This document shows positions 2,727-20,824 of a stretch of DNA of 48,385 nucleotides, in pieces. The DNA lies in the IMG/VR virus record IMGVR_UViG_3300037041_000868, positions 1 through 48,385 of that record. One strand, given 5' to 3'. The stretch comes from a virus. Each line of letters starts with the position of its first letter. Positions within the stretch are counted from its first letter, which is position 1. Below the pieces are notes generated by a model. It made no database searches and was not told where the DNA came from. It worked only from the letters and a program-made list of their open reading frames with translations. The translations under genes and the position numbers were made by a program.

Positions 2727-4121
2727 CTAACACCAGCCAGCCATACTGACCTGCTTGACATCTCGTCGGGAAGTACTTCTCACTCCGTTTGTCCCAACCA
2801 CGTAGCTCGTAAGATAAGTAAATCCATCTCCGATATCGCTATGTGGATGGTCTTTGAGGGGTTTTTCTTCCATGTCCCCGTCTTTACGTGCAGCAAATTT
2901 GTACGAGTGGCCCAGTGCATTTATCAGGCCGGTACACCCGGCGTCAATTAACACCCCCGCCTTGCCCTCTATTTGCCGGCCGAACATCGTCTCTGCCGAC
3001 CCAATCCTGATTTCTATTTTGTTAGATGCTGCTGGGCGGTGCTTCATCCCTGCCTTTTCTAGCACACTAAGAACCGTTTCCTCGCTTGCCTGTGACGGCT
3101 GGTTAGCCGCCGGGTCCACGATGATCATTGCTGGTATACCGCTGAACTTACTTACGAGCATGGGCTTCAGCCGGTTGGCTAAAAACCTCTCCATACCAAT
3201 GGACTCATTCTTCGGGGTGTAACACTCCCCCAAAATATTCAAGCGCCCTTTCGGTGTTAGCTGCCCAATGATCGCCGCTGGCGTTAGCCCCGCGTCCAAA
3301 CCGATTAGAAGTGGGTAGTCTGGCGAATAGACGGCCAGCAGCGGCTCTTTGGCTACGTGGAAGTCCCGGATAAATGTCTGTCTGAACACCGGCATCCCTT
3401 CCCTGCTCTGACCGAACTCGCAGTCGATCATTGTGCGAATGTACTCTTCTGTCAGCCCTTCTGTATTGTAGTAGTCTGGTGGAAGGAAGACTAGATTTTC
3501 GGCCTCAGGTGTGCGTCCTCCCGGCTGTCTGAACGTCGTCCAGTCTCCCTCGTCTCCATCCATTATTTTCTGGTGGTAACTATCGAACGCTGGCATGTTT
3601 GTGTCTGCAATTATGCACGGGTACGTCGCACCTGGTCCCTGTTTTCTTGATGGGTACCGTCCGACTCTTTTGGAGCCGATCACGCCTTCGATAACAGCCT
3701 GGGAAATCTCGCGCAACTCGCACAGAAAAATGGTTGTGGCTTCTAGCGAAAGAAGCTGCCTGAGAGAAACCTCGTCTTCTAATGCCAAAAATAGTATTTC
3801 CGCGCGGACGTCTTCAAAATTTAGATAATACATCCGGTCAGCTATATTAAACCTTCCGAACACATCTGGTGGAAGCCAGTCGGTGAATGTCTTGATTACA
3901 GTCTGGCGTAACTGTGCGATGGTATTACGCACAACAATGTGTCTACTCCTCCGGAACCCATCTTCGTCAGGTTCTTGCTGCATTGCATTAAGTAGGGTGT
4001 GAATCACGCACGCACTTGTTTTTCCGCCCCCCACGGGTCCGGCCAGGATCTTACGCGGACTCCTGCTACCGAGGAACCTATCTACCGTGGGAGATGCTGT
4101 GTACTTCAGGGCGTAGCTCAT
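2727..4121 (-). CDS. terL: Large terminase subunit (packaging ATPase/nuclease, 464 aa)
   Basis: TerL is the motor that cuts concatemeric DNA and pumps it through the portal. Walker A is GPVGGGKT (residues 28-35). The Walker B-like strand is IFLCELREI (131-139), with Glu135 preceded by Cys rather than Asp. The RNase H-like nuclease domain starts with LLIGLDAGLTP (Asp276), and further acids follow near VDPAAN and the C-terminal DHPHSDIGDGF. The N-terminus is short: only 27 residues precede Walker A. The ATG at 4121-4119 overlaps the stop of the upstream GIY-YIG endonuclease gene (ATGA), so translation of this essential gene may depend on ribosomes leaving the endonuclease frame. Confidence 0.92.
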   Translation of the reverse strand: MSYALKYTASPTVDRFLGSRSPRKILAGPVGGGKTSACVIHTLLNAMQQEPDEDGFRRSRHIVVRNTIAQLRQTVIKTFTDWLPPDVFGRFNIADRMYYLNFEDVRAEILFLALEDEVSLRQLLSLEATTIFLCELREISQAVIEGVIGSKRVGRYPSRKQGPGATYPCIIADTNMPAFDSYHQKIMDGDEGDWTTFRQPGGRTPEAENLVFLPPDYYNTEGLTEEYIRTMIDCEFGQSREGMPVFRQTFIRDFHVAKEPLLAVYSPDYPLLIGLDAGLTPAAIIGQLTPKGRLNILGECYTPKNESIGMERFLANRLKPMLVSKFSGIPAMIIVDPAANQPSQASEETVLSVLEKAGMKHRPAASNKIEIRIGSAETMFGRQIEGKAGVLIDAGCTGLINALGHSYKFAARKDGDMEEKPLKDHPHSDIGDGFTYLTSYVVGTNGVRSTSRRDVKQVSMAGWC

Positions 4122-5011
4122 TTTTTCATCCCTGCGACAATCAACCTTCGGCGACGTGTCTCTGCCTGCTCTGGCGTCATCCTAACTGCCTCGTCTATAC
4201 TGAGCCCGGCTTTGAGCCTCCTGAGCAGCGCTGCCGCCGTGCAGCTGGATTCCTGCGTCAGCTCCGTTAGGTTCATCATTTTCCCATCGAAGCTATATTT
4301 GCGGTCTCCCCCGGCAGTGTGTTTTTTTACTGCCGGTTCTGTAGCCGCCCGCTCTACGTCCCATCCTCGCTGCATCCTACCCAGAAAAGTGCATCGAGCT
4401 ACTCCATACTGCTCACGTATCTCAGAGATCAATAACATCTCGCCACGCACATCATACCGAGTAGACCTTGCTTTCACAGACGCTCCTATCTTTTGCCGAA
4501 CTTCAACTGTATATGGTGCACTACGCTCTTTCTTTGTCATCGCGGCCAAACGTGTTTTGTTCTTTTCACCCTGAACTTTAGAGAGCCACGGGTTTTCTGC
4601 ATATATCTTTTTGATCCGTGCCGACTGCGCAGAACGCCATTCAGGTGTCCCACGGGCTTTCTTTCCACTAACGGAATTTGCTTTTCGCTGTGCTGCGGTG
4701 CGCTTCAGGCCAACCGAACTCCCCGCTACTTTGCATGAGTTATACGCGGGCTTCAGGGTATCGAAGTAGTGTTGCTCTCGGACAAGCAGTTGATCTACTG
4801 CGCACTCTTCCAGTACTGAAAATTCAAACGCTGACTGCCCATACTTTCTAGCCGCTCGCTGTAGCGCAATGCTGTGATGGTTGCCTGCTTTCATATATTT
4901 TCTGTGCTCTTCCCACCGCCGACGGATACTATTAGCCGACCCGATGTAGCATTTACCATTCTGGCCGTTGGTGATTTTATAAATTCCTGGGAAGTTGTAT
5001 GCGAGTTTCAT
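4118..5011 (-). CDS. GIY-YIG homing endonuclease with NUMOD-type repeats (297 aa)
   Basis: A free-standing homing endonuclease lies between the two terminase genes. Residues 9-24 hold the GIY...YIG core (GIYKI then KCYIG), followed by the RRRWEEH helix, and the catalytic Glu lies in VREQHYFDTLKPAYN (about residues 77-91). After a basic linker come two similar DNA-binding repeats at the C-terminus (around MLLISEIREQYGV...RGWDVERA and MMNLTELTQESSC...AGLSIDEA), like the NUMOD/helix-turn-helix repeats of this family. Such enzymes cut an allele lacking the gene and are copied in by repair. It overlaps terL by 4 bp (ATGA). It may have its own promoter (TTGACA at 5045-5040, minus strand). Confidence 0.9.
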   Translation of the reverse strand: MKLAYNFPGIYKITNGQNGKCYIGSANSIRRRWEEHRKYMKAGNHHSIALQRAARKYGQSAFEFSVLEECAVDQLLVREQHYFDTLKPAYNSCKVAGSSVGLKRTAAQRKANSVSGKKARGTPEWRSAQSARIKKIYAENPWLSKVQGEKNKTRLAAMTKKERSAPYTVEVRQKIGASVKARSTRYDVRGEMLLISEIREQYGVARCTFLGRMQRGWDVERAATEPAVKKHTAGGDRKYSFDGKMMNLTELTQESSCTAAALLRRLKAGLSIDEAVRMTPEQAETRRRRLIVAGMKK

Positions 5012-6847: not shown

Positions 6848-6870
6848 ATTACACTATGAGAGGATTCATC

Positions 6871-7620
6871 ATGTCTACATCTACTACTTTGAAGTCTGTT
6901 GTTATCGCTGCACCAAAGGTTAACCTAGAGCCTGTTCTCATGCAAGCTGAGATTATGGAACAATCACACAGTGCAAACAGCCTGTTGCTAGTCGAGAAAC
7001 TGATTGCTTGCGGAAAATCCATTGAGCCTATTGCGCAAGATTCAAACCGAAAATCAGCGCATAGTCTTTTCACCCAAAAGATTGCCATTGAACTTTCAAC
7101 GCGCAAAAAGCACACTTTAGACTATAAAGGCAAGGTAATTGCCAGCAAGGCAGAGCTGGCATTCACTGCCAGCACGGCGGCTGGTTACAAGAGCAAGTTT
7201 TCAAAAATTATCGTTTTCGCATCCAATGGATTCGACTTTACGCCTTGCGCGGGCATGTTTTTGGGTGAAGTGTACGCCTATATCAACGGGCTGGAGTCTG
7301 TGCCATTCTGGACTAAAAAGGCGGCTGGCAGGCATACGGCAACAGCTGCAAAGGCGAATGAGCAAAAGCATGGCACACTTGGGCAAGCCGCCACTGAGGC
7401 GACATATCACTTAACTGCTAAGCCTGATCAGTTCGTCAAGGCATTGCCCCACTCTACTCAAATACTTTTGGCGATCGCCACGCTGAAGGCTTTGGAAATT
7501 CCAGTCCCAAAACTGCTAACCTCCGCGCTGAGCGCAAAATCCGCCTTGCCTACTGTGGGGCGCAAGGAGCTAAGCGAGTCAAGAAAGCGTATGCTCATAG
7601 CGAAGGCAGTTGGCATTTAA
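6871..7620 (+). CDS. Early hypothetical protein (249 aa)
   Basis: I choose ATG 6871 because GAGAGGA lies 6 bases upstream; an in-frame ATG at 6856 has no ribosome site. The protein (MSTSTTLKSVVIAAPKVNLEP...) has a Lys/Ala-rich helical middle and a basic C-terminus (RKELSESRKRMLIAKAVGI). There are no membrane segments, signal peptide or catalytic motif that I can see. It is the second gene of the early transcript and is followed at once by a rho-independent terminator, so the 77-aa and 249-aa genes form a two-gene early operon. Function unknown; its place next to the repeat region makes a DNA-binding or origin role thinkable but unproven. Confidence 0.75.
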   Translation: MSTSTTLKSVVIAAPKVNLEPVLMQAEIMEQSHSANSLLLVEKLIACGKSIEPIAQDSNRKSAHSLFTQKIAIELSTRKKHTLDYKGKVIASKAELAFTASTAAGYKSKFSKIIVFASNGFDFTPCAGMFLGEVYAYINGLESVPFWTKKAAGRHTATAAKANEQKHGTLGQAATEATYHLTAKPDQFVKALPHSTQILLAIATLKALEIPVPKLLTSALSAKSALPTVGRKELSESRKRMLIAKAVGI

Positions 7621-7679: not shown

Positions 7680-7883
7680 TTTGTGAACTGACTATCCAGG
7701 TTTGTGAACTGACTATCCAGGTTTGTGAACTGGCTACACTTGTGAACTGACTATCCAGGTTTGTGAACTGGCTACACTTGTGAACTGACTATCCAGGTTT
7801 GTGAACTGGCTACACTTGTGAACTGGCTACACTTGTGAACTGGCTACACTTGTGAACTGGCTACACTTGTGAACTGGCTACAC
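7680..7883 (+). repeat. Tandem iteron array, 11 units of two types
   Basis: Units are type A, TTGTGAACTGACTATCCAGG (20-21 bp), and type B, TTGTGAACTGGCTACAC (17-18 bp), in the order A A B A B A B B B B B with no gaps. Copies: A at 7680, 7701, 7740, 7778; B at 7722, 7760, 7798, 7816, 7833, 7850, 7867. All point the same way and share the core AACTGRCTAYMC. There are no spacers, so it is not a CRISPR array. Spacing of 17-21 bp resembles replication-initiator iterons. Confidence 0.93.
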
Positions 7884-18074: not shown

Positions 18075-18341
18075 ATGCCAAGTTCACCAGGATACAAGCG
18101 GGATCTGAAACAGGAAAGAAAAACAGAGTTGGCCCGAGGTGGGGCAGAGAAAAACATCGAGCGTAAGCAGGCTCGGCGGGATATGGAGAAGGCCGGTCTT
18201 GTCAAACCATTCGATGGGAAAGACGTGGATCATAAGAAGCCTCTCAGTAAGGGGGGGTCAGGGGCGCAGAGTAATCTGCGGGTTCAGAGTGTATCAGATA
18301 ACAGGTCGTTCCCCAGAACGAAAGCAGGGGCAATAAAATGA
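18075..18341 (+). CDS. Small HNH-like nuclease (88 aa)
   Basis: A basic protein whose core, DVDHKKPLSKGGSGAQSNLRVQSVSDNRSFPRT, matches the compact HNH pattern (Asp-His in DVDHK, Asn in SNLRV, final Asn/Arg in DNRSF). Residues 1-45 are Lys/Arg/Glu-rich. Such minimal HNH proteins are frequent in phages; the role may be DNA nicking. It lies 92 bp upstream of the intein-bearing polymerase gene. AAGGAG precedes the ATG; stop overlaps a tiny membrane ORF. Confidence 0.75.
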   Translation: MPSSPGYKRDLKQERKTELARGGAEKNIERKQARRDMEKAGLVKPFDGKDVDHKKPLSKGGSGAQSNLRVQSVSDNRSFPRTKAGAIK

Positions 18342-18433: not shown

Positions 18434-20824
18434 ATGGATTATTTTGTACTGGACTTCGAGACATACTTTGACTCGAAGGCGAAATACTCACTGCGCTGCA
18501 TGACCACCGAGGAATATATAAACGACCCAAGGTTTAAGTGCTTCGGGTTCTCGGTCCTTCGTAACGGGGGGAAGGCGCACTGGGTTCCCGAAGAGCGTGC
18601 GGAGTTCATGCTGAGGCAACTCAAGCTGCACGAACACGCGGTCATATCACACAACGCGCAGTTTGATATGGCAATTCTCAACTGGAAGTACGGGGTGAAG
18701 CCTAAGTTCCTCATAGATACGCTGTCTATGGCCAGGGGGATACTCGGCAACGAGAGTAAGCTGTCTCTGGCGGCGCTGTGCGAGCGGTATGGTATCGGTG
18801 ACAAGGGGGATACCCTCTTGCATATGGATGGGGTAAGGAGTCCATCGCCGTCTCTGATGCGGAAACTCGGGGAGTACTGCGAGAACGACTCAAACATGAC
18901 ATGGAAGTTGTGGAAGATACTACGTCCTGAGATTTCCAGGTCGGAGTTGGTCGTGATAGATATTACAACGCGCATGTTTACCGAGCCGTCGTTCGAGCTG
19001 GACCCCATACCGATTCTCCGTGAGCTGGAGCTGGGAGACATAAAGAAAGGGAAACTGCTGCAGGCTGCAGGGTGTACGATGGAAGATCTGCGGAGTGACC
19101 CTAAGTTTGCCATGCTGCTCCAGAACCTTGGGGTAGTACCGCCAAAGAAGTTGTCAGTCAAGAAGTCAGAGAAGCTAGGTAGTCCGGTATATGCCTGGGC
19201 GTTTGCCAAGAGTGACGTGGACTTCAAGGCACTGGGTGAGCATGAAGATGAGCTGGTGCGGTGGGCGGTGGAGGCGCGGCTGGGTCTCAAGTCTACTATC
19301 AAGCAGTCGCGCGCCGAGCGTTTTCTGGGGATACAGAAGCGTATGGGAAGCATGCCTGTGGCACTTACCTATTACGGCGCGGGCACCGGGCGGTATGCGG
19401 CTAGTAGCTCGGCCAAGGTCAACATGCAGAACCTGCCCTCTGTACGAGGGAGTAAAGACCCAGATGCCGGACTACTGCGGAAGGCACTGCGCGCACCTGA
19501 AGGTCAGTGTGTTGTCGTATCAGACGCAGCACAGATAGAAGCTAGGATACTGGCATGGCTAGCTGGGCAGCATAACGTGGTCGAAGCATTCGCCCAGGGT
19601 CGGGACGTGTACTCGGAAATGGCGAGCGTCATCTTCAGTCGGCACGTTGACCGGGAGAAAAATCCGGATGACTACATAGCCGGGTTCATAGGTAAGGCAG
19701 TAGTTTTGGGCTGCATAGCGGAAGGTGAGTTAGTGGCGACAGATATAGGGGAAGTTCCTATAGAAAAGGTAACAGTAGGCATGAAGGTATGGGACGGGGA
19801 GGAATGGGTTACACACACGGGAGTAGTGTATCAGGGGGATAAGCATGTCATACGATACGACGGGCTTACCGCGACATCTGACCACGTTGTATTTGTCCAA
19901 GGTGGGGGAACGTGCTATTTCGGAGATGCCGCCGTAACAGGCAGCATTATCCGAGGGCGTTGCACACGTCAGGAAAAGCGACATGGCAAATGCCACAGTA
20001 AACCGGAAGACATCGGGATTATGCGAACGTACGATATTACCAATGCCGGACCCCGCCATCGCTTTATTGTATCTGGAAAGCTAGTACATAATTGCGGGTA
20101 CGGCCTGGGGCACTTAAAGTTTGCGTCGATGATTTATTCGGGTATGCTGGGGGCTGAGGGAGTGTTCTTCGATGATGCAATGGTCGACCTCCTCGGAGCC
20201 GATGTAAGAGGGTACTCACGATTCATTAGTGACAAGCCCGACTTACTGGCCCGAATAGTAGAACTGCAACCGGCAGGGCTAGGTGATGTCGAGTGGCTCA
20301 AGCACGTAGCATGCGCATTCAAGATCATCAACACGTTCAGGGAGAAAAACCTAGCGATACCTGAGCTATGGAAAACTGGGGAACGACTGCTCCGCGCCAT
20401 GTACGAAGGCACCGGAGAGAAGATTCTCATGTTCCAGACAGCGAAGGACAAGCTGCTGCTACCCAACGGGATGTGGCTGCACTTCAAGGAACTGGAGCTG
20501 TCCAAGGATGGAGACTTCTCGTGCCTTCGCCGGAAGGAAGGCCGCATCCAGCGCGTCAAGATGTACGGCGGCAAAGTGGTGGAGAATCTATGCCAGGCCC
20601 TGGCCGGAGCATACGTAAAAGAAGCCATGGTTAGAATGTATCTGAAGGGTCATAGGACGATCTTGCAGGTTCACGATGAAGTAGTAGCACTAGCACTAAA
20701 AAATCAGGCAGAGCGCGTCCTGAAGGAGATTAACGCGTGTATGGAGACGGTTCCCGAGTGGGCGGTAGGTTTACCCCTATCGGCAAAGGGAGACTTCGCC
20801 GATTCTTATGGAGATGCAAAATAA
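18434..20824 (+). CDS. Family A DNA polymerase interrupted by a mini-intein (796 aa precursor)
   Basis: The replicative polymerase. The N-terminal 3'-5' exonuclease domain shows DFETYFD (Asp7, Glu9), NAQFDM (Asp78) and YCENDSNM (Asp152). The polymerase domain has motif A SDAAQIEAR (Asp364), the O-helix/motif B GKAVVLG...CGYGLGH, and motif C VHDEV (His747, Asp748, Glu749). Residues 427-553 are an intein (separate entry). After splicing the enzyme would be 669 residues, normal for phage Pol A. ATG 18434 follows GGGGAGGATGA. It heads the replication block with helicases and nucleases. Activity requires splicing, since the intein splits the dNTP-binding helix. Confidence 0.93.
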   Translation: MDYFVLDFETYFDSKAKYSLRCMTTEEYINDPRFKCFGFSVLRNGGKAHWVPEERAEFMLRQLKLHEHAVISHNAQFDMAILNWKYGVKPKFLIDTLSMARGILGNESKLSLAALCERYGIGDKGDTLLHMDGVRSPSPSLMRKLGEYCENDSNMTWKLWKILRPEISRSELVVIDITTRMFTEPSFELDPIPILRELELGDIKKGKLLQAAGCTMEDLRSDPKFAMLLQNLGVVPPKKLSVKKSEKLGSPVYAWAFAKSDVDFKALGEHEDELVRWAVEARLGLKSTIKQSRAERFLGIQKRMGSMPVALTYYGAGTGRYAASSSAKVNMQNLPSVRGSKDPDAGLLRKALRAPEGQCVVVSDAAQIEARILAWLAGQHNVVEAFAQGRDVYSEMASVIFSRHVDREKNPDDYIAGFIGKAVVLGCIAEGELVATDIGEVPIEKVTVGMKVWDGEEWVTHTGVVYQGDKHVIRYDGLTATSDHVVFVQGGGTCYFGDAAVTGSIIRGRCTRQEKRHGKCHSKPEDIGIMRTYDITNAGPRHRFIVSGKLVHNCGYGLGHLKFASMIYSGMLGAEGVFFDDAMVDLLGADVRGYSRFISDKPDLLARIVELQPAGLGDVEWLKHVACAFKIINTFREKNLAIPELWKTGERLLRAMYEGTGEKILMFQTAKDKLLLPNGMWLHFKELELSKDGDFSCLRRKEGRIQRVKMYGGKVVENLCQALAGAYVKEAMVRMYLKGHRTILQVHDEVVALALKNQAERVLKEINACMETVPEWAVGLPLSAKGDFADSYGDAK
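19712..20092 (+). other. Mini-intein inside DNA polymerase (127 aa, no endonuclease)
   Basis: Protein residues 427-553. The first residue is Cys (CIAEGELVATDIGEVPIEKV, block A), block B is TATSDHVVF (the T-x-x-H pattern), block F is TYDITNAGPRHRFIVSGK and block G ends LVHN followed by Cys (+1 extein). The four splicing blocks and all three key residue types (Cys1, block B His, His-Asn/Cys+1) are present. No LAGLIDADG or HNH domain separates B and F, and 127 residues is about the smallest size known to me for inteins. It sits between G426 and the CGYG of the O-helix. Confidence 0.92.

Follow-up and report, generated by a model that had tools for sequence, protein, structure and literature searches.

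A mini-intein in the O-helix of a viral DNA polymerase, probably descended from mobile PolA inteins with an overlapping HNH gene

Why is the gene of a viral DNA polymerase interrupted, in frame, by 127 codons in the helix that binds dNTP, and where did these codons come from? The question is raised by the IMG/VR record IMGVR_UViG_3300037041_000868, whose 48,385 nucleotides were analysed as a whole and are here called the window. The gene encodes a precursor of 796 residues, with Pfam matches to a DEDD exonuclease domain at 3.8e-9 (PF01612) and to a family A polymerase domain at 3.9e-22 (PF00476), and a PHROG match to DNA polymerase (phrog_17, 2.8e-68). The bounds that a first-pass annotation had given for the open frame and the insert were exact (Table 1), as was its spliced length of 669 residues, the difference between 796 and 127. 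Our results indicate that the segment is very probably a functional class-1, cis-splicing mini-intein that goes back to a mobile PolA element of about 310 residues with a nested +1-frame HNH gene, the endonuclease having since been lost.

Table 1. Features of the interrupted polymerase gene, in window coordinates.
Feature	Position	Strand	Basis
Precursor gene: DnaQ-type 3'-5' exonuclease and family A DNA polymerase, intein-interrupted	18434..20824	+	PF01612, PF00476, phrog_17
N-extein, ending ..GKAVVLG at the O-helix	18434..19711	+	Alignment with intein-free KPP25 and TM3_14A polymerases; KPP25 vs Klenow
Class-1 Cys mini-intein, 127 aa	19712..20092	+	Translation; alignment A2; AlphaFold; Hint fold
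Degenerate remnant of a nested-gene start: CATGTCAT and ACG where relatives have GAGGTNAT and ATG	19839..19859	+	Sequence; anti-Shine-Dalgarno energy
Block B, GLTATSDH (T-x-x-H = T55..H58)	19862..19885	+	G51, T55 and H58 invariant in A2
Low-confidence 21-aa linker CTRQEKRHGKCHSKPEDIGIM, in place of the ~190-codon nested-HNH region of relatives	19961..20023	+	Pairwise alignment to L003; pLDDT 68-75
Blocks F and G, TYDITNAGPRHRFIVSGKLVHN (D108, H116, H126, N127)	20027..20092	+	Y107, D108 and H126 invariant in A2, N127 nearly
C-extein, first residue the +1 nucleophile Cys (CGYGLG)	20093..20824	+	+1 Cys in 136/136 family members

The junctions are defined by homologues that have no insert. The order GKAVVLG, intein, CGYGLG in the window corresponds to GKTSILGLGYGMG and GKQCILGLGFGLG in the intein-free polymerases of Pseudomonas KPP25 and Rhizobium TM3_14A, and the joined exteins of the window match the KPP25 polymerase in a single ungapped alignment that spans the junction, at 44.9% identity. 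The segment is an in-frame insertion into a conserved protein with insert-free homologues, as a class-1 intein should be. When the C-extein alone was used as query, no relatives were found in IMG/VR. Alignment of the intein-free KPP25 protein to Klenow places the insertion site in the RRSAKAINFGLIYGM helix, as the first-pass annotation had located it. Since the insertion interrupts the dNTP-binding O-helix, the precursor should be inactive before splicing; read from position and family, polymerase activity would have to depend on splicing, as had also been proposed.

The intein comprises precursor residues 427-553 and reads CIAEGELVATD...TATSDH...RTYDITNAGPRHRFIVSGKLVHN, followed by Cys. Its set of splicing residues is complete (C1, T55-S-D-H58, Y107-D108...H116, H126-N127 and Cys+1), and the blocks noticed at first reading (Cys1, T-x-x-H, block F, His-Asn, Cys+1) are all present both on translation and in A2, an alignment of the window copy with 24 other mini-inteins. 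C1, T55, H58, Y107, D108 and H126 are invariant among the 25 and N127 nearly so, with about 30 invariant columns overall. Identity to the other 24 ranges from 43 to 60%, the nearest among the matches listed being at 60%, which together with the invariant columns argues that the likeness to inteins is not due to chance.

An AlphaFold2 model built from A2 (pLDDT 92.9, pTM 0.85) has the Hint fold and can be superposed along its entire length on intein splicing domains: that of the Mtu RecA mini-intein with Z 17.1 and rmsd 2.1 A (121 aa), and those of Ssp DnaB (Z 16.7), Npu DnaE (16.5) and gp41-1 (16.1). In Pfam, the intein scored 15.9 bits against Hint_2, for which the cutoff is 28.4, and searches of NCBIfam and of PDB sequences gave no match above threshold. 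As the intein and Hint models of Pfam and NCBIfam stay below cutoff, the assignment depends on the motifs, the family and the fold; these, with the empty-site homologues, agree with the mini-intein identity first proposed.

The first reading was also correct in finding no endonuclease in the intein: a search with an HNH profile in six frames, covering the intein and the rest of the window, returned no HNH relative in any frame. The +1 and +2 frames of the intein are interrupted by stops, and no trans-acting relative of the nested HNH of other family members occurs in the window. The suggestion that the intein is richer in AT than the polymerase holds as to direction, the difference being modest (GC 50.1% vs 54.5% and 53.2% in the exteins; GC3 46% vs 65% and 63%). 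The intein lies below every 381-base stretch of the joined exteins in GC, and in 86% of the family the intein is likewise below its flanks.

The insert belongs to a large family. When the first 64 residues of the intein were used in a scan, well over 80 viral loci and 77 loci in bacterial genomes were obtained, and phages and prophages of several phyla yielded at least 119 inteins of 110 to 321 aa at the PolA O-helix site. The hosts include Bacillota, Actinomycetota, Spirochaetota, Synergistota, Bacteroidota and Pseudomonadota. Among the inteins listed, C1, the penultimate His, the terminal Asn and the +1 Cys are each found in 136 of 136, and the window copy carries the CIAEG..WDG..NAG..HN splicing domain at a PolA site that defines the family (alignments A1 and A2). 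Two size classes are seen among the at least 119 listed at the O-helix site, one with 29 inteins (110-168 aa) and one with 90 (257-321 aa), with 67 of the listed copies measuring exactly 309 aa. With lengths going down to 110 aa, the 127 aa of the window copy are not extreme, and the earlier idea that it approaches the lower limit for inteins does not stand, given members of 110 and of 120-125 aa. The 110-aa copy, 17 aa shorter than that of the window and with complete splicing residues, is found at the O-helix site in two loci (L096 and L168, 4001-4330), in polymerases near-identical to those that carry 309-aa Allobaculum copies. At least two other PolA sites also hold related inteins, in P45 of APSE-1 and in Jerseyvirus polymerases, the latter annotated as intein-containing precursors. 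The class of site was known, as some deposited records already label such polymerases as intein-containing; the window copy by itself is an ordinary addition to a known kind, and the interest comes from the family that it exposes.

Full, mini and empty alleles replace one another within this family. The site is empty in Streptococcus phages whose polymerases are about 94% identical, which amounts to the presence/absence polymorphism that a homing element should show. In a tree built from 103 polymerase exteins, at least 22 changes between full and mini are required, of which at least 17 are forced by supported branches. Mini-inteins have arisen at least about 17 times, in the clear cases through deletions that keep the frame. 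In one of them (L070 vs L090 and L171), a single 555-bp deletion between two copies of ATCATCAGC separates inteins that are 93-94% identical outside the gap. The same 555-bp deletion is found in another pair (L165 vs L149), at ATCATCAGTGC, and both are bounded by ATCATCAGC-type direct repeats. Two further pairs (L036 vs L125 and L132 vs L145) differ by deletions of 522 and 516 bp, and every one of these sizes is divisible by three. The remaining mini/full pairs give fragmented alignments without sharp breakpoints, and Javan422 has a 168-aa intein that retains half of the HNH gene. The two ends of the window intein align to those of a 318-aa relative (L003), with an unrelated linker of 21 residues replacing about 190 codons; its own deletion is not reconstructable, since the polymerase is only 39-45% identical to those of its nearest relatives.

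This interchange bears on whether the intein has a regulatory role. The first-pass annotation had suggested that splicing is a post-translational switch of phage DNA replication, and a redox-, temperature- or metal-sensitive mini-intein could act in this way: it sits in the catalytic helix, where the unspliced polymerase is expected to be inactive, and it has three extra Cys (C68, C84 and C94), two of which lie in its private linker. However, the linker Cys are absent from the relatives in A2, no conserved sensor feature was seen, and the swapping of full, mini and empty alleles among near-identical polymerases is in keeping with a selfish element that has no regulatory role. With no pointer to conditional splicing in the sequence, and with minis and full-length copies interchanging freely as expected of a neutral or selfish element, we consider a switch improbable.

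It could also be argued that the segment is a Hint domain that is dead or only cleaves, such as a bacterial intein-like domain (BIL), or that it is a permanent structural part of the polymerase. The fold search did return BIL and Hedgehog Hint domains (Z 14-16). Nevertheless, the terminal His-Asn and Cys+1 are kept in all of the 136 family members listed, and an insert that stayed in the O-helix would leave an essential enzyme without function. Homologous polymerases either do without the segment, with a clean junction, or have an intein (110 to 321 aa) in its place; a homologue with the same residues as a normal structural insert, which had been named as the observation that would speak against an intein, was not found. 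Both versions are therefore very improbable, and the 127-aa segment is almost certainly a self-excising intein that leaves the protein following translation.

For this mini-intein, we infer splicing in cells by the class-1 route. Cys1 would undergo an N-S acyl shift aided by the TSDH motif of block B, Cys+1 of the C-extein would capture the N-extein through thioester exchange, and cyclisation of Asn127, aided by His126 and residues of block F, would free the intein. The product would be the 669-aa polymerase with its O-helix intact (..GKAVVLG-CGYGLG..).

The long members of the family indicate what was lost. Between blocks B and F, their translation in the intein frame is noise-like, and other frames hold a long HNH-type ORF. 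An HNH profile built from ten of these nested ORFs was used to class 106 inteins of 200-350 aa at all sites; among these full-length inteins listed, the HNH frame is +1 in 97, +2 in 9 and the intein frame in none. At the O-helix site, nested HNH genes were found at loci such as L017, L018, L034 and L036 and at about 90 others among those listed, and they are also seen at other PolA sites (L019, L022, L023, L025, L004 and L011). One copy, from Eubacterium plexicaudatum (L180, 4001 onward), has its intein frame broken past 45 codons and its HNH in frame with the intein start; it is probably a frameshifted, dead allele.

Both frames of the long inteins bear marks of selection. In 43 non-redundant copies of 309 aa, variability at the three intein codon positions is.25/.16/.58 in the N-terminal splicing block and about.60/.31/.24 in the endonuclease region. 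The peak moves from position 3 to position 1, so that the silent position belongs to the +1 frame. In the endonuclease region of the same 43 copies, amino acid identity is.32,.64 and.32 in frames +0, +1 and +2, and stops number 0, 2 and 515. If synonymous codons of the HNH frame are shuffled, 416 stops are expected in the intein frame, against 0 observed, and the converse shuffle, of synonymous codons in the intein frame, predicts 201 against 2 observed. Together with the identity pattern, the two shuffles show selection on both frames, for an endonuclease sequence in one and for openness in the other. Out-of-frame dual coding in the relatives, with each frame under selection, is thereby shown by computation.

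The nested ORF matches the phrog_374 HNH endonuclease (4e-24 to 1.6e-48, three proteins), has an invariant Cys4 formed by a pair of CxxC motifs, and is modelled with a pLDDT of about 90 over residues 30-250. A Foldseek search of the PDB with this model gave no significant match, the HNH enzyme PacI appearing at E 1.9, and the HNH label consequently rests on the PHROG profiles. We infer that the nested HNH is translated and active, and that it cuts the empty site in homing. That the ORFs stem from errors of annotation or sequencing, or from the decay of endonucleases once in frame, is barely credible, even if most records leave the nested gene unannotated, in view of its recurrence in many isolate genomes among the 106 inteins classed, the fixed 309-aa length of 67 O-helix-site copies, the purifying selection on the +1 frame and the selected openness of the intein frame, and the deposited record of APSE-1 (NC_000935), in which P45 contains the nested HNH gene P46.

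Start signals for such a gene can be recognised. At intein nucleotide 146, in the +1 frame, 62 of the 70 full-length copies listed have an ATG preceded by a Shine-Dalgarno sequence like GAGGTNAT. The motif falls on the intein residues EVI-Y-(D/E)-G, and for this reason a control on synonymous codons was run: the Glu codon is GAG in 49/62 (background 336/845, p 2e-9) and the Tyr codon is TAT in 61/67 (195/375, p 3e-10), these p values being nominal because the sequences share ancestry. Loss of these signals was considered as a general divider of minis from full-length inteins and discarded, with the ATG still present in 21/26 minis and the pairing energies alike (p 0.93). Overlapping conserved intein residues and persisting in most minis, the signals are suggestive of translation rather than proof of it. 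In the window copy, which has neither HNH nor Shine-Dalgarno and shows ACG for ATG, the anti-Shine-Dalgarno pairing energy is 0.2 kcal/mol, against a family median of -7.1 kcal/mol. On its sequence, this copy is a derived form and not a carrier of the nested endonuclease.

Taken together, these data suggest a course for the window lineage. The ancestor, about 310 aa long, would have been a mobile intein of PolA, homing by means of an HNH-type endonuclease that was encoded by a separate +1-frame gene nested within the intein coding sequence and started from an internal Shine-Dalgarno/ATG. The endonuclease would then have been deleted with the intein frame kept, and the start signals would have decayed, leaving a copy that is immobile and that is retained because its imprecise loss would destroy the polymerase. 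On balance, we favour the broader view that this intein is the remnant of a hitherto undescribed intein type, with an endonuclease that is never one of the intein's own domains and is overprinted out of frame, a host frame selected to stay open, and recurrent collapse to minis through frame-keeping deletions at short repeats.

The nearest counterparts are other minis at the same PolA site (../CIAEG..HN/CGY..), also without endonuclease: those of Ruminococcus phages NatCom_29429/23091 (140 aa), with 48-49% full-length identity to the window copy, and one from IMG/VR (L001, about 134 aa, ending at the contig end), with 60%. They differ in linkers and hosts, and the window copy additionally lacks the +1-frame start codon and Shine-Dalgarno. 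The 309-aa inteins in phages of Streptococcus and Gardnerella, and likewise that of L003, share site and splicing domain with the window copy, but carry the overlapping +1-frame HNH gene. Those of APSE-1 (P45/P46) and Jerseyvirus (Salmonella) occupy other PolA sites, near EN/C..Q and, four residues upstream, at GKA/CELGLGY. P46 is annotated as a nested gene in the deposited APSE-1 record, and no generalisation of it was found.

In the literature, no out-of-frame endonuclease was found in true inteins; a 2025 preprint of the ShiLan group, which reportedly describes a 'non-canonical architecture' of actinobacteriophage inteins, may overlap with our results. The only published parallel found is the ShiLan domain, a 'hidden HNH' encoded out of frame in a mycobacteriophage DNA methylase whose host frame is open (PMC11855218). 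It shares the out-of-frame HNH with the PolA family; however, it lacks a splicing domain and is probably retained in the protein (PMC11855218), whereas the HNH carrier in the PolA family is a true intein. In canonical endonuclease-containing inteins such as Sce VMA and TliVMA, the homing endonuclease that accompanies the Hint splicing domain is part of the intein polypeptide, as an in-frame domain, and minis form by endonuclease loss (PMC8966425). The PolA family resembles them in combining Hint and endonuclease and in mini formation, and differs in the frame of the endonuclease.

Splicing and homing would be divided between two overlapping frames in the PolA family, an arrangement comparable to that of group I introns, whose homing endonucleases are encoded in free ORFs. 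Endonuclease searches confined to the intein frame would misclassify these full-length inteins. The family provides a natural series of endonuclease loss with readable breakpoints, in which the loss step of the homing cycle can be counted directly, and the clean catalytic-helix site of the window mini-intein could be useful in splicing assays.

Some other features of the window deserve mention. Immediately 5' of the polymerase gene lies an 88-aa HNH-like ORF (18075-18341, + strand; phrog_4590). It was considered as the missing endonuclease and rejected, being of other families and having no profile kinship to the nested endonucleases. A GIY-YIG endonuclease gene (4118-5011, - strand; PF01541, 9.7e-11) adjoins the same-strand ORF 2727-4121 and is probably a free-standing homing endonuclease. 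Shortly 3' of ORF 6856-7620, at 7680-7883, there are iteron-like tandem repeats of 17/21/38 bp (TTGTGAACTGGCTACAC), possibly a replication origin. Finally, ten copies of an operator-like, TGTTTC-rich palindrome (of the GTTTCGGAAACA type) are confined to the early-gene region, between 6427 and 16500; the motif has 24 strand matches in the window, with 3.6 expected.
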